A stretch of DNA of 64,000 nt from an uncultured Latescibacterota bacterium (GTDB lineage Bacteria; Latescibacterota; UBA2968), in assembly GCA_951812755.1 (NCBI GenBank), contig OX638329.1, positions 3,480,522 through 3,544,521 on the forward strand, in the 5' to 3' direction. This document shows, piece after piece, positions 57,982-61,974 of the stretch. The notes below the pieces were generated by a model that saw nothing but the letters and a program-made list of their open reading frames with translations, did no database searches and was not told the origin of the DNA. The translations under genes were made by a program, and so were the position numbers. Positions within the stretch are counted from its first letter, which is position 1, and each line of letters starts with the position of its first letter.

Positions 57982-58416
57982 TTATGACACAGCGACTTCG
58001 ATCTGCCGAGGTTTTGCTGCTTCTGACTTGGGTACCGTCAGAGTCAAAATCCCGTCCTTGTAATTTGCAGCAATTTTATTGGCTTGTACTTCTGTGCTGA
58101 GCTTGAAAGCGCGTTTGAATGTCCCATAGGAACGTTCACGACGGAAGAAATATTTATCCTTCTGCCCGTCTTCGTGCTTCCGCTCGCCTTCAATTGTGAG
58201 CACATTGTCTTCGAGCGTCACCTTGATATCATCCTTGTTCAGCCCGGGCAATTCGGCGTGAACGGTAAATTCATGATCCGATTCCACTACATCCACGCGA
58301 GGGTGCCAGCCCGTGCCGTGATAGGTGTTTACATCGCCCCAGAACTTGCTCACCAGGTCGTCGATCTCGCGCTGAATCGCGAAAGACTCACGGGGTTGCC
58401 AACGAATAAGTGCCAT
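57982..58416 (-). CDS. Hsp20 family small heat-shock protein
   Basis: 144 residues from the ATG at 58416 (AGGAGG upstream). Alpha-crystallin domain with HAELPGLNKDDIKVTLEDNVLTIEGERK and the C-terminal anchor NYKDGILTLTVPKSE; the short I-x-I-like tail is IEVAV. It holds unfolded proteins for refolding by ClpB/DnaK. The sigma-54 promoter is 60 bp upstream. Confidence 0.95.
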   Translation of the reverse strand: MALIRWQPRESFAIQREIDDLVSKFWGDVNTYHGTGWHPRVDVVESDHEFTVHAELPGLNKDDIKVTLEDNVLTIEGERKHEDGQKDKYFFRRERSYGTFKRAFKLSTEVQANKIAANYKDGILTLTVPKSEAAKPRQIEVAVS

Positions 58417-58475
58417 CACAATACCTCCTGTTATTGGTTGTTGGTTGTTACTTCTTCGTCTCGTCCTATTTCTAT

Positions 58476-58491
58476 TGCAACCCCCGTGCCA
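58476..58491 (-). promoter_or_regulatory. sigma-54 promoter of hsp20(-clpB)
   Basis: On the minus strand TGGCAC-N5-TTGCA with G in the run after GGCAC, a near-exact -24/-12 element. Its predicted start is about 12 bp downstream, with a leader of about 45-50 nt to the ATG. The rest of 58492-58755 is AT-rich and holds no gene; a TGTCT/AGACA inverted repeat is near 58643. Confidence 0.75.
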
Positions 58492-58755
58492 CAATATTTA
58501 ATTTTCTCAAAAATTAAAATAAACTATTGTAAAAAAAAAGTTTAAAATTTTCACCTTCCGTTTTTGTCAGCGTACCATTCTATCTCTAAACCTGTCAGAT
58601 CGCCACAAACGCCTCATTTTGGCATCAATCGGTCTGTCGCCCTGTCTTATAGGCAGACAATATGGCACAAAAACCTTGTTCTCCCACGCGCTGAATGGGT
58701 ATATTAGGAAAACTATCTGGCACAACCCTATATTGACCGCTCAGGAGAAAACGCA

Positions 58756-61290
58756 ATGCGACCAGTCATCACCTTCACAATTGTATTGCTATGGACCTGT
58801 GCTTGCTTTGCCAGCGATCCGGTGCAAACGCTAACCTATTGCGAGAATCTTTCCGGATGGTCCCGCGGCTTACAATTATCTAAAGACGCGCCAGAGGGTC
58901 GCTTTGCCGTCGCCGCTTCCCTGCCAGCAGGTCAGACGGGATTCTTTACCTACAATTTTTTTAGCACAGGCCTGGATATCTCCCAGAAACACAGCTTGAG
59001 CTTCTGGTGGAAAGTAGAAGGCGATGGTCTGAGGGACCTCAAAATCAAAGTTCGCAACTATCCCTTGGTCGGCGGCATGGAAGCCGTATATACGATCTGG
59101 GAGGGACAAACACCGCCCCAGGGCTGGCAACTTGCTGTTATAGAACTGGCAAAACCCCAATACGATAACTGGGGCAGAGAACCCGATTACAACCAACGAT
59201 ATATCATATTTAGAACTGAAACCAGTCAAAATTCAAATGCGCGCCTGTTCATCGATCATATTGCAACCGTCGATCAGACCTTTTCATGGCAAGTTGACGC
59301 GCCAGTACAGGAAAAAGGCTCTATTACCCATCTCGATTTTGATGGCAACGGAGCCGTTGGTTTTACTGATTTTATTCTCTTTGCTCAGAAATTCGGTGCA
59401 ACACAGACCAATTCAGAATACGATCCTCTCTACGATCTCGATTCTGACGGACAAATCGGTTTTGGAGATTTTCTCACTTTTGCCGCTGGATTTGGATCTG
59501 ATGGCTCGCAGTGGTACATCCCCGTCATATTTGAAAACCACACCGCACAACCGTTAAGTATTGCAGTGGGAACCGAAACGCAGACCTTGTTGACACAGAC
59601 CATTCAGGTGGGAACGACCCAGATTCGCGTGCCAATCCCTCGGGATATTCTCGCCTCACGCAACCCCACCACGACATATCCCATCCCTATTTGGGCGCAG
59701 GTTGCAGATTATATCCAAACGCGAAGCAGTTGGATATCTTACGTACCCCAGCGTATTCCATCGCGCACATGGACACAATTCGTAGCGGCCAAAGAAAACG
59801 CTACTGAACCCATTTTACCCGATTTTTCCTACTCGGGCTATCACTACTTTGACAAACCGATTCCCGATATCCAGGGCGATGTATTCGACGTCACAGCTTA
59901 TGGCGCCATCCCCAATGATAGCCTCTCCGACCAGGCCGCCATCGTACGCGCCATTACTGCAGCCGAGCAAAACAACGGCGGCATTGTCTTCTTACCCCCA
60001 GGCGAATTTCTCGTCAATACCAATGCAGACAACAACCAGCCCATCTACATCCGCAACAGCAACATCGTCCTCAGAGGAAGCGGCAGTCGAAGCGGAGGCA
60101 CAATCATCCGCCAGGTGAACCACATGCCGCCACTCAATCCCGACCAGTTGTGGACATCGCCCTATATGTTTATTTTCCAACCCCGCAACACAAGCGATAG
60201 ATCCCTGACGTCCATTACGGAAAGTGCCGATCGAGAAACCTTCTATATCACAGTAGCCGATGCTTCCAGGCTCTTTCCAGGCCAACGGATAACGCTCTAT
60301 ATGAACAGCACCGCAGCCATCTCGGAATTTCTCGCGCCCTACTCGGCAGAATCCATCTGGACGACTATGCTGACCAATGGAATACAAGTGCGCGAAAAGC
60401 ACAGCATTGCCGAAATACAGGGCAATCGGATTCGCCTCAATGAACCCCTGCACACCGATGTCAACCACACGTATAACTGGACCGTGCGCGAATATCAGCA
60501 CCTCGAGGAAATCGGCGTTGAAGACATCAGCTTTCACGGCACCTGGCTGGATGATTTTGTCCACCACAAAGACGCTATTCACGATGGCGGCTGGAGTTTG
60601 CTCCGGCTCAACCGATGTGTCAATTCCTGGATACGGCGCACATCCTTCATCAATTGCAATCGCGCCCTTCGCATAAGTTTGAGTTCTGCCGTATCTGTGT
60701 ACCACGTCACACAGGCGGGAAATCTGGGCCATTCATCTATTGCCAGCGATGGCGGTTATGGCGTATGGGTCGGGCTGTCAGAAGACCTCGCAGGCCACTG
60801 GCATGGACCGGGCACAAACAGTCGCTCTGCCGGAACCGTGTACTGGCGTTATGACATGCGTCCAGATCAACGCATTGACGCCCATGGTGCTCAACCTTAT
60901 GCCAGCCTGCTCGACCGCGTCAATGGCGGTATCTTGTATGGCAGCGGCGCGTCCCTCGCCAATTATCCCAATCACCTCAAGCATTACGTGCTCTGGAATT
61001 TCAAACATCGGGGCAATTTGAGACACTACGACTTTTGGCAACCTGGTGACGCACGCGACCGATTTGTACAGCCCATCATCGTTGGCTTGCACGGCGACCC
61101 CGCCACCTTTAATGAAAATACCCTCCAGGTCGTCGAATCCAACGGCAGCCCAGTTGAGCCAGAATCGCTCTTCGAAGCCCAACTCGAATCGCGTCTCCAA
61201 ATCCTCCCCCCCTGGCTCAACGACCTCCGTACAGAGTGGGAAACGTTTCGAAATACGCCGCTACCAGATTTCCCGGTGCCGAATTTTTAA
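58756..61290 (+). CDS. secreted beta-helix (pectate-lyase-3-like) protein with EF-hand pair
   Basis: 844 residues. Signal peptide (FTIVLLWTCACFA), an N-terminal beta-sandwich (CBM-like, residues about 25-180), a pair of dockerin-like calcium loops (LDFDGNGAVGFTDF and YDLDSDGQIGFGDF, about 195-240), then a pectate-lyase-3/right-handed beta-helix domain starting with GDVFDVTAYGAIPNDSLSDQAAI. The C-terminal part matches the DUF4955 type. It is probably an extracellular polysaccharide lyase or hydrolase. AGGAGAA precedes the ATG. Confidence 0.85.
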   Translation: MRPVITFTIVLLWTCACFASDPVQTLTYCENLSGWSRGLQLSKDAPEGRFAVAASLPAGQTGFFTYNFFSTGLDISQKHSLSFWWKVEGDGLRDLKIKVRNYPLVGGMEAVYTIWEGQTPPQGWQLAVIELAKPQYDNWGREPDYNQRYIIFRTETSQNSNARLFIDHIATVDQTFSWQVDAPVQEKGSITHLDFDGNGAVGFTDFILFAQKFGATQTNSEYDPLYDLDSDGQIGFGDFLTFAAGFGSDGSQWYIPVIFENHTAQPLSIAVGTETQTLLTQTIQVGTTQIRVPIPRDILASRNPTTTYPIPIWAQVADYIQTRSSWISYVPQRIPSRTWTQFVAAKENATEPILPDFSYSGYHYFDKPIPDIQGDVFDVTAYGAIPNDSLSDQAAIVRAITAAEQNNGGIVFLPPGEFLVNTNADNNQPIYIRNSNIVLRGSGSRSGGTIIRQVNHMPPLNPDQLWTSPYMFIFQPRNTSDRSLTSITESADRETFYITVADASRLFPGQRITLYMNSTAAISEFLAPYSAESIWTTMLTNGIQVREKHSIAEIQGNRIRLNEPLHTDVNHTYNWTVREYQHLEEIGVEDISFHGTWLDDFVHHKDAIHDGGWSLLRLNRCVNSWIRRTSFINCNRALRISLSSAVSVYHVTQAGNLGHSSIASDGGYGVWVGLSEDLAGHWHGPGTNSRSAGTVYWRYDMRPDQRIDAHGAQPYASLLDRVNGGILYGSGASLANYPNHLKHYVLWNFKHRGNLRHYDFWQPGDARDRFVQPIIVGLHGDPATFNENTLQVVESNGSPVEPESLFEAQLESRLQILPPWLNDLRTEWETFRNTPLPDFPVPNF

Positions 61291-61377: not shown

Positions 61378-61539
61378 ATGCCTGAACAGATGACAACACG
61401 CCCACTCATTCGAGGCGATATACGCAAACTGAACGCACCAGAAAAAAATTTATTTAATCGAATAAAAAAGATTCGCAAAGCTATTGGTCCTGTGGTAGTA
61501 AATTCTGGTGCGATTTTAAGGCGGTTAAATGATCAATGA
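61378..61539 (+). CDS. 53-aa antitoxin-like protein upstream of a PIN toxin
   Basis: A small basic protein (KKIRKAIGPVVVNSGAILRRLND) with AAAGGAG before the ATG. Its stop overlaps the PIN-domain gene's start by 11 bp, which is the usual toxin-antitoxin layout. No DNA-binding domain is recognised. Confidence 0.6.
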   Translation: MPEQMTTRPLIRGDIRKLNAPEKNLFNRIKKIRKAIGPVVVNSGAILRRLNDQ

Positions 61540-61974
61540 AAGATACGTTTTAGATGCGTCAGTTGCTGCTAAGTGGTTCTTAAACGACGAAGACGTGGTA
61601 GATATTGCAGAGACGTTTTTCATTCGGTTCTTAGCTAAAGAGATCGTATTTTATGCACCGCATATTCTCGAGTATGAATTAGGTCACATTATTACCCGGG
61701 CACAGCGCAGTGGTAGGCAGCGTATCGAAACAGATCAAGCAATAGAAGCGTATCGAACATTCTCTGAATTGCCAATTGTATTTTGTGACTTGAGCGTACA
61801 AGATCGACAAACAATTTTGCAATCCGCTTTAATCGCGGATTTTATGATGCGACTTATATCGTCCTGGCAAACAAACTTGATTGTATCTGGTTGACCAGCG
61901 AAAAACGATATCGAACAAACTTACCTCCTGACTTTCCAGAGCATCTAATTCTGACATTGGAAAGTTTCGAATAG
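61529..61974 (+). pseudogene. PIN-domain toxin gene (VapC-like), frameshifted
   Basis: VLDASVAAKWFLNDED and YELGHIITRA give the first two acidic sites of a PIN domain. After ALIADF a missing T (TTTT for TTTTT near 61840) shifts the frame and gives an early stop at 61894. The other frame reads YDATYIVLANKLDCIWLTSEKRY, the true C-terminal part, and ends at 61974. The toxin would be inactive unless the shift is a read error. Confidence 0.75.

Follow-up and report, generated by a model that had tools for sequence, protein, structure and literature searches.

In the uncultured Latescibacterota bacterium studied here, hsp20 and clpB are probably transcribed from an enhancer-dependent sigma-54 promoter as part of a small chaperone regulon, with the protein encoded at locus L095 as the most likely activator. 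Sequence comparison gives good support to sigma-54 control of hsp20-clpB. More generally, chaperone genes in this bacterium and in many of its relatives appear to be switched on via sigma-54 and not via the usual heat-shock sigma factor. Candidatus Latescibacterota is a phylum within the FCB group, and we know of no cultured model for it. The genome is a single contig of 6.53 Mb; "the window" below denotes the whole 64 kb stretch of it that was analysed.

Results

The hsp20-clpB locus and its promoter

The preliminary description proposed a sigma-54 promoter in front of hsp20-clpB, and the TGGCAC-N5-TTGCA element on which it was based is found exactly at the place given (Table 1). The GG and GC dinucleotides of TGGCACGGGGGTTGCA lie 10 bp apart, and 59 nt separate the element from the hsp20 ATG at 58416. 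Given the predicted transcription start, the leader of hsp20 would be approximately 48 nt long. The two genes share a strand and are separated by 108 nt, and clpB is probably co-transcribed with hsp20. A ClpB-like gene follows hsp20 in eight other members of the genus and lies within ~1.1 kb of it in G012 and G019; none was seen near hsp20 in the remaining fetched neighbourhoods.

Table 1. Features of the hsp20-clpB locus, in window coordinates.
Feature	Position	Strand	Basis or remark
-24/-12 element TGGCACGGGGGTTGCA	58476..58491	-	exact TGGCAC-N5-TTGCA match
Transcription start, predicted	58465	-	12 nt past the GC of the -12 box, standard sigma-54 geometry
Shine-Dalgarno-like AGGAGGT	58423..58429	-	sequence reading
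hsp20, small heat-shock protein, 144 aa (MALIRWQP...)	57982..58416	-	PF00011, 97 bits
clpB, disaggregase, 868 aa	55267..57873	-	TIGR03346, 1336.7 bits (cut-off 1232.1)
TTTACAATAGTTTATT, core CAA-N4-TTA, between enhancer and promoter	58518..58533	-	putative IHF-like site
Dyad TGGCGATCTGACA, 114 nt upstream of the -24 box	58593..58605	-	8 of 10 fixed positions
Dyad TGCCAAAATGAGG	58612..58624	-	8 of 10; TGTCAAAATGAGA in G006
Dyad TGCCATATTGTCT	58655..58667	-	8 of 10; also listed for the near-identical G009 locus

The informativeness of the motif depends on stringency. Without mismatches, TGGCAC-N5-TTGCA occurs once in the window, at TGGCACGGGGGTTGCA. With two mismatches allowed there are 22 matches against 23.65 expected, so the motif is uninformative at low stringency and counts within the window only as an exact match. 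Across the whole genome, exact TGGCAC-N5-TTGCW is found 34 times, and 25 of the 30 fetched exact matches are not spanned by an open reading frame of at least 100 aa. Allowing up to one mismatch yields 393 matches compared with 119 for a reversed control pattern, an excess expected of a genome that uses sigma-54 promoters.

Between the upstream dyads and the promoter lies TTTACAATAGTTTATT, whose core resembles an IHF site. A CAR-N4-TTA sequence recurs 36-39 nt upstream of the -24 box in all 10 genus loci. The gene divergent from hsp20 (58756-61290, plus strand) encodes a DUF4955 and a pectate-lyase-like domain, and its upstream region overlaps the hsp20 enhancer region. A short open reading frame at 61529-61894 (plus strand) was judged by eye to encode a PIN-domain (VapC-like) protein with an odd C-terminus.

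Sigma-54 machinery and conservation of the promoter

The sigma-54 promoter reading is supported both by the machinery of the genome and by conservation of the two boxes among relatives. The preliminary description had named a genome lacking rpoN and non-conserved boxes as outcomes that would speak against it, and neither was observed. The gene for sigma-54 itself is present (PF04552, 200.9 bits; C1:3385881-3386354), as it is in 56 of the 60 genomes searched, this one included. Enhancer-binding proteins are numerous: of 30 PF00158 matches, 25 exceed 145 bits and were taken as activators, and the other five, at ~38 bits or less, include the ClpB of the window. RpoH (TIGR02392) was above the cut-off in none of the 60 genomes, while 2 of 14 control genomes passed.

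We found hsp20 in 51 of the 60 genomes and fetched the 30 best-matching loci, which span the genome itself, its genus, family, order, class and phylum. A site was accepted at a score of at least 12.5, calculated with weights of our own. Comparable sites were present in 25 of the 30 loci, ~54-102 nt ahead of the hsp20 protein match. Dinucleotide shuffles reached the site score in 0 of 300 trials at 21 of these 25 loci, and in 1, 2, 6 and 44 trials at the other four. At three of the misses (L084, L086 and L090) the upstream sequence is truncated or masked. A fourth, L088, comes second in a gene pair, and it is the first gene of that pair that has a site, beside an uncertain start. L082 carries hsp20 without a sigma-54 site in place. 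Five of six further loci (L146-L151) also have the site; among these, the class members G025, G028, G037 and G040 show TGGCAC-N5-TTGC 63-75 nt ahead of hsp20. No site was found at hsp20 of G020 (L146) or at the second hsp20 copy of G015.

An enhancer-like dyad upstream of hsp20

When the printed sequences were compared side by side, a dyad, TGYCA-N3-TGRCA, was apparent upstream of the hsp20 sites, mostly in two copies per promoter. The copies, usually at least two, lie some 45-165 nt upstream of the -24 box. Examples are TGTCAAAATGGCA and TGTCATTATGGCA in G018 (30 bp apart), TGCCAATATGGCA and TGCCATAATGGCA in G019 (39 bp apart), and TGCCATTGTGGCA and TGCCATAGTGGCA in G011 (44 bp apart). Across 24 promoters, the two best dyads are spaced by 39-44 bp in 12, by 30 bp in four, and differently in eight. 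Spacings of 39-44 bp and 30 bp are near whole helical turns.

Dyad statistics were calculated for 24 of the 30 loci, after dropping four with short or masked upstream sequence and two without a site in place. At 17 of the 24 loci, no more than 10 of 1000 shuffles attained the summed score of the top two dyads. At the hsp20 locus of the window 52 of 1000 did, and the dyads there are not significant alone. Because the motif was first spotted by eye in hsp20 promoters, these figures are biased and controls carry more weight. A best dyad of at least 9 of 10 fixed positions accompanies 20 of the 24 hsp20 sites; among 29 exact sigma-54 sites elsewhere in the genome, one has such a dyad at equal distance. 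Of 26 hsp20 upstream regions, each no longer than 450 bp, 10 contain a pair of dyads that both score at least 9 and fall within 70 bp, and none of 105 control loci does (~605 kb, partly overlapping). The hsp20 locus of the window (L050) is itself among these 105 and lacks such a pair, as do 16 of the 26 hsp20 regions.

A dyad search of the window alone was uninformative (4 matches; 8.25 expected), and an untargeted search of the hsp20 upstream regions for long palindromes returned mostly AT-rich repeats and terminator-like hairpins. The preliminary description had implied an upstream enhancer: an enhancer-like dyad is clear in many relatives and weak in the window, where the copies match at 8 of 10 positions. 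On these comparisons, the dyad is well supported as a putative hsp20 enhancer in the relatives and moderately supported in the window.

One further site of the genome has a similar layout. At L038:1357-1726 (C1 near 697,000), two dyads stand 102 and 144 nt upstream of an exact sigma-54 site, which itself precedes an uncharacterised 53-aa open reading frame with no Pfam match, possibly a small member of the chaperone regulon.

The dyad and sigma-54 sites at dnaK and groES

Six relatives (G011 and G015-G019) were searched with a stricter pattern, ATGYCA-N3-TGRCAT, which matched at 13 places, compared with 2 for the reversed control. Four matches are at hsp20, and two, in two genomes, lie ahead of a zinc-ribbon gene and dnaK. 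Of the others, three fall in the gap that separates an isomerase-like gene from a short-chain dehydrogenase-like one, another three mark a dehydrogenase E1 gene junction, and the last is inside a coding region, with gene names assigned by eye. Both dnaK-operon dyads are followed 111 nt further on by a sigma-54-like site, TGGTACTCATGTTGCT. At the isomerase-like/dehydrogenase-like and E1 junctions (L362, L363 and L371; L367 and L368), the dyads are strong, with as many as three in 60 bp, and lack a sigma-54 site at the usual distance.

After the two matches at the dnaK operon, dnaK was chosen as a separate test. Of 30 loci returned, 28 were scorable, two of them from other phyla (G060 and G069). 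The arrangement sought was a sigma-54-like site scoring 12.5 or more, a permissive threshold, and, 40-200 nt upstream of it, a dyad matching at least 9 of 10 positions. Both were present at 17 of the 28 loci, the genome itself included, and 0 of 300 shuffles reproduced the arrangement at each. The dnaK site of this genome, TGGTATGTATATTGCT, is weaker and has dyads TGACAATATGGCA (9 of 10) at -110 and AGACAGTATGGCA (8 of 10) at -90. The 110 nt distance is similar to the 114 nt of TGGCGATCTGACA at hsp20. From this promoter, the order is zinc-ribbon gene (PF09723), then dnaK (TIGR02350). The arrangement is absent from 11 of the 28 loci, including three of five genus members tested (G002, G008 and G009), and at nine of these 11 the 700 nt examined contain no sigma-54-like site.

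For groES, 23 of 30 rows were used; L203, L207, L208 and L209 were left out for misplaced starts, and L210, L212 and L218 because they were not found. The fetched loci exclude the genome of the window, and many genomes have further Cpn10 matches outside this count. CIRCE, at 16 or more of 18 positions, precedes groES at 17 of the 23 usable loci. Five loci of one class-level family, f4 (L213, L219, L223, L225 and L228), instead have a sigma-54 site and no CIRCE. L210, a sixth f4 locus scored outside the 23, shows a sigma-54 site as well, and at L202 neither CIRCE nor a sigma-54 site was found.

A candidate activator

Of the 25 activators of the genome, only the 512-aa protein encoded at L095:4064-5602 (C1:735563-737101) gave reciprocal best hits in every one of the six comparison genomes (in G012, five of seven PF00158 matches were usable). 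It consists of a diverged receiver-like N-terminus, an AAA+ domain (PF00158, 237 bits), a linker reading LPV..GKTP... and a Fis-type HTH domain (PF02954, 48.6 bits). Its receiver domain scores 22.8 bits, under the Pfam cut-off of 30.2; among orthologues, that of G047 passes (31.1), that of G054 scores 14.2, and G012 and G017 give no match. The sequence RTLYRK in the recognition helix is invariant across seven orthologues. The sigma-54 contact loop reads GAFTDA here and in G012 and G017, GSFTDA in G053, and GAFTGA in G054, G047 and G051; the replacement of GAFTGA by GAFTDA speaks against the candidate. Variants of the GAFTGA loop are seen in Desulfovibrio activators assigned to regulons, and GAFTDA is not among the variants in the excerpted passages of that study (PMC4641369).

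A profile of the linker and HTH matched at E values of 1e-20 or lower in 50 of the 60 genomes. In G032 and G057 (assemblies 76% and 99% complete), dyads are present at hsp20 or dnaK but neither genome matches this profile strongly, which argues against pairing the dyad with the L095 protein unless the gene is absent from the assembly or has diverged. The L095 gene itself is flanked by one for a TPR-like protein (by eye) and one for a trypsin/PDZ (DegP-like) protease. No activator gene was located beside hsp20 in 35 fetched neighbourhoods (L117-L151). Scans for dyad pairs near activators were likewise negative: 25 stretches of this genome (L092-L116), 30 loci from six relatives (L152-L181) and another 20 stretches (L182-L201) gave none, so conservation is the one line of evidence for the pairing. 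From these sequences, we consider it a good hypothesis that the L095 protein is the most likely activator of the hsp20 promoter.

Elsewhere in the genome, the activator encoded at L113:4471-6357 (C1:5998470-6000356) carries a CARF-like Cas_NE0113 domain (PF09623), and behind it lie two exact sigma-54 sites (L113:6577 and 7719) and a CRISPR RNA-processing-like gene (by eye); this is possibly a sigma-54-controlled, CARF-signalled locus. Nine activators (L099, L101, L102, L104-L107, L109 and L111) are 1,058-1,088 aa long, and the two scanned, L099 and L101, fuse a Reg_prop/Y_Y_Y propeller sensor to the sigma-54 AAA+ domain. In six of these nine stretches, a TGGCACRCTTTTTGCW site lies within a few hundred bases of the gene. 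A 1,659-aa activator at L094:2881-7860 combines Ser/Thr protein kinase, AAA_16, TPR, GAF, sigma-54 AAA+ and HTH domains in one chain.

Related activators and hsp20 sites in other phyla

The linker and HTH profile was also searched against 26 genomes reached through hsp20 loci of other phyla. It matched open frames of 367-484 aa in four Bacteroidota, five Ignavibacteria-type, one Zixibacteria and three further bacteria, with best E values from 3.5e-30 to 5.6e-14. In the remaining 13 genomes the best E ranged from 2.2e-15 to no match, and the groups with and without an L095-type match therefore overlap slightly. The related Bacteroidota and Ignavibacteria proteins are short, five of them being 367-415 aa. 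An LptE-like gene follows the activator in six of the eight neighbourhoods read, and five of these were confirmed as PF04390.

From named genomes, 80 hsp20 loci were fetched, of which 79 could be scored for a site of at least 13.5 within 350 nt upstream. Such a site is present at 15 of the 79, two of them from Latescibacterota genomes and the other positives mainly from Verrucomicrobiota, Planctomycetota, Bacteroidota, Zixibacteria and Spirochaetes. Site and dyad occur together in, for example, L327 (Bacteroidetes), L337 (Zixibacteria) and L295. Rows from Chloroflexi, Cyanobacteria, Acidobacteria and Deltaproteobacteria had no site of at least 13.5. One of four Bacteroidota-type rows passes (L327), with two others reaching 13.2, and none of the five Ignavibacteria-type rows does; these misses argue against an FCB-wide rule.

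A broader scenario is possible, though on balance doubtful. One ancient family of L095-type sigma-54 activators, lptE-linked in Bacteroidota and Ignavibacteria, together with the enhancer TGYCA-N3-TGRCA, may form the heat-shock master switch in much of the FCB group. It would replace RpoH, govern hsp20-clpB and dnaK, have taken over groESL in lineages that lost CIRCE, and sense misfolding via chaperone titration.

Discussion

Alternative explanations

That the -24/-12 match is accidental, with hsp20 under the main sigma factor or HrcA/CIRCE, is highly improbable. The chance level of the two-mismatch motif in the window and the frequency of CIRCE ahead of groES would fit such an account, but the site is kept from genus to phylum with linked dyads, and CIRCE upstream of hsp20 reaches at best 12 of 18 positions in 30 loci and 11 in the window. 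Upstream of dnaK, too, the best CIRCE match is 12 of 18 among the 25 loci listed. Two promoters, a housekeeping-type GTGAAA-17-TACAAT (58554-58526, minus strand) for basal and the sigma-54 promoter for induced expression, are unlikely, though less so. The housekeeping-type sequence is a 9-of-12 match to a consensus that may not be that of the host phylum, and the genus retains a TTTACAATA-like block; yet 2 promoter-like sites in 2 kb are close to the 2.2 expected, and a bend site would account for the retained block equally well.

A somewhat better case, although still rather unlikely, can be made for a real promoter and enhancer served by another activator: the NtrC-type L092 or L093, or a 335-aa protein without an N-terminal domain (the second protein of L094). 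With 25 activators, candidates exist, L092 and L093 have reciprocal best hits in 5 and 4 of the six test genomes, and the dyads of G032 and G057 lack a strong L095-profile match. Against this, in the alignments shown, the C-terminal helices vary more across the phylum in the L092 and L093 sets than in the L095 set.

Under the preferred reading, with the L095 protein as activator, the regulon would comprise hsp20-clpB and the operon of the zinc-ribbon gene and dnaK, joined in one class-level lineage by groESL. RNA polymerase with sigma-54 would wait at the hsp20 promoter as a closed complex. An activator hexamer on the dyads would be brought in by a bend of the intervening AT-rich DNA, possibly by IHF, and would open the promoter complex using ATP. 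The trigger may be protein misfolding, perhaps through chaperone titration, since the L095 receiver is degenerate and the related Bacteroidota and Ignavibacteria proteins are short.

Comparison with known systems

Sigma-54 promoters on chaperone genes are already known and have been mapped in Flavobacterium. In F. psychrophilum, starts with -24/-12 boxes were mapped at groESL, lon, dnaK, grpE-dnaJ, htpG and clpB (PMC9723704). In this part of the tree, sigma-54 control of such genes is thus not rare, at odds with the earlier statement that heat-shock genes under sigma-54 are rare. These SM4 promoters resemble ours in placing sigma-54-type promoters on the same class of chaperone genes. As far as the excerpted text goes, they differ in that no enhancer sequence or activator is assigned, the authors leaving open which of three activators acts, and hsp20 falls outside the selected table (PMC9723704). 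A survey of predicted sigma-54 targets found heat-shock chaperones, IbpA-type included, enriched in Bacteroidota and Planctomycetota; it differs from our analysis in predicting promoters by gene group, and its excerpted text names no enhancer, activator or Latescibacterota (PMC12316311). Excerpts of two further studies describe a sigma-54 promoter in tandem at Chlamydia hrcA-grpE (PMC8762339) and heat induction of hsp20, clpB and dnaK in the planctomycete R. baltica, with no change seen in rpoN or rpoH (PMC2754498). In the open-licence literature searched, no title or abstract dealt with TGYCA-N3-TGRCA, the L095 activator, or Latescibacterota together with sigma-54.

In the F. psychrophilum genome, a probable sigma-54 activator gene with LptE behind it lies three to four locus tags away from groES. 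Latescibacterota differ from this species in that groES mostly has CIRCE and the candidate activator has an extra N-terminal receiver-like domain. In E. coli, the sigma-54 activator PspF of the psp system answers stress by release from a negative partner. A likeness here is an exact sigma-54 site 52 nt before a pspA-like gene (by eye) at L041 (C1:1710565); a difference is that the present targets are cytoplasmic chaperones. The RpoH (sigma-32) heat-shock regulon overlaps in its target genes with the set described here. It uses another class of sigma factor, whereas here an ATP-driven activator would act, and none of the 60 genomes searched has RpoH over the cut-off.

How bacteria without RpoH mount a positive heat-shock response is only partly known. 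For Latescibacterota, the present analysis puts names to a putative enhancer and a candidate activator and defines the set of genes concerned. This ties in with the mapped sigma-54 chaperone promoters of Flavobacterium, for which the activator was left open in the excerpted text (PMC9723704).
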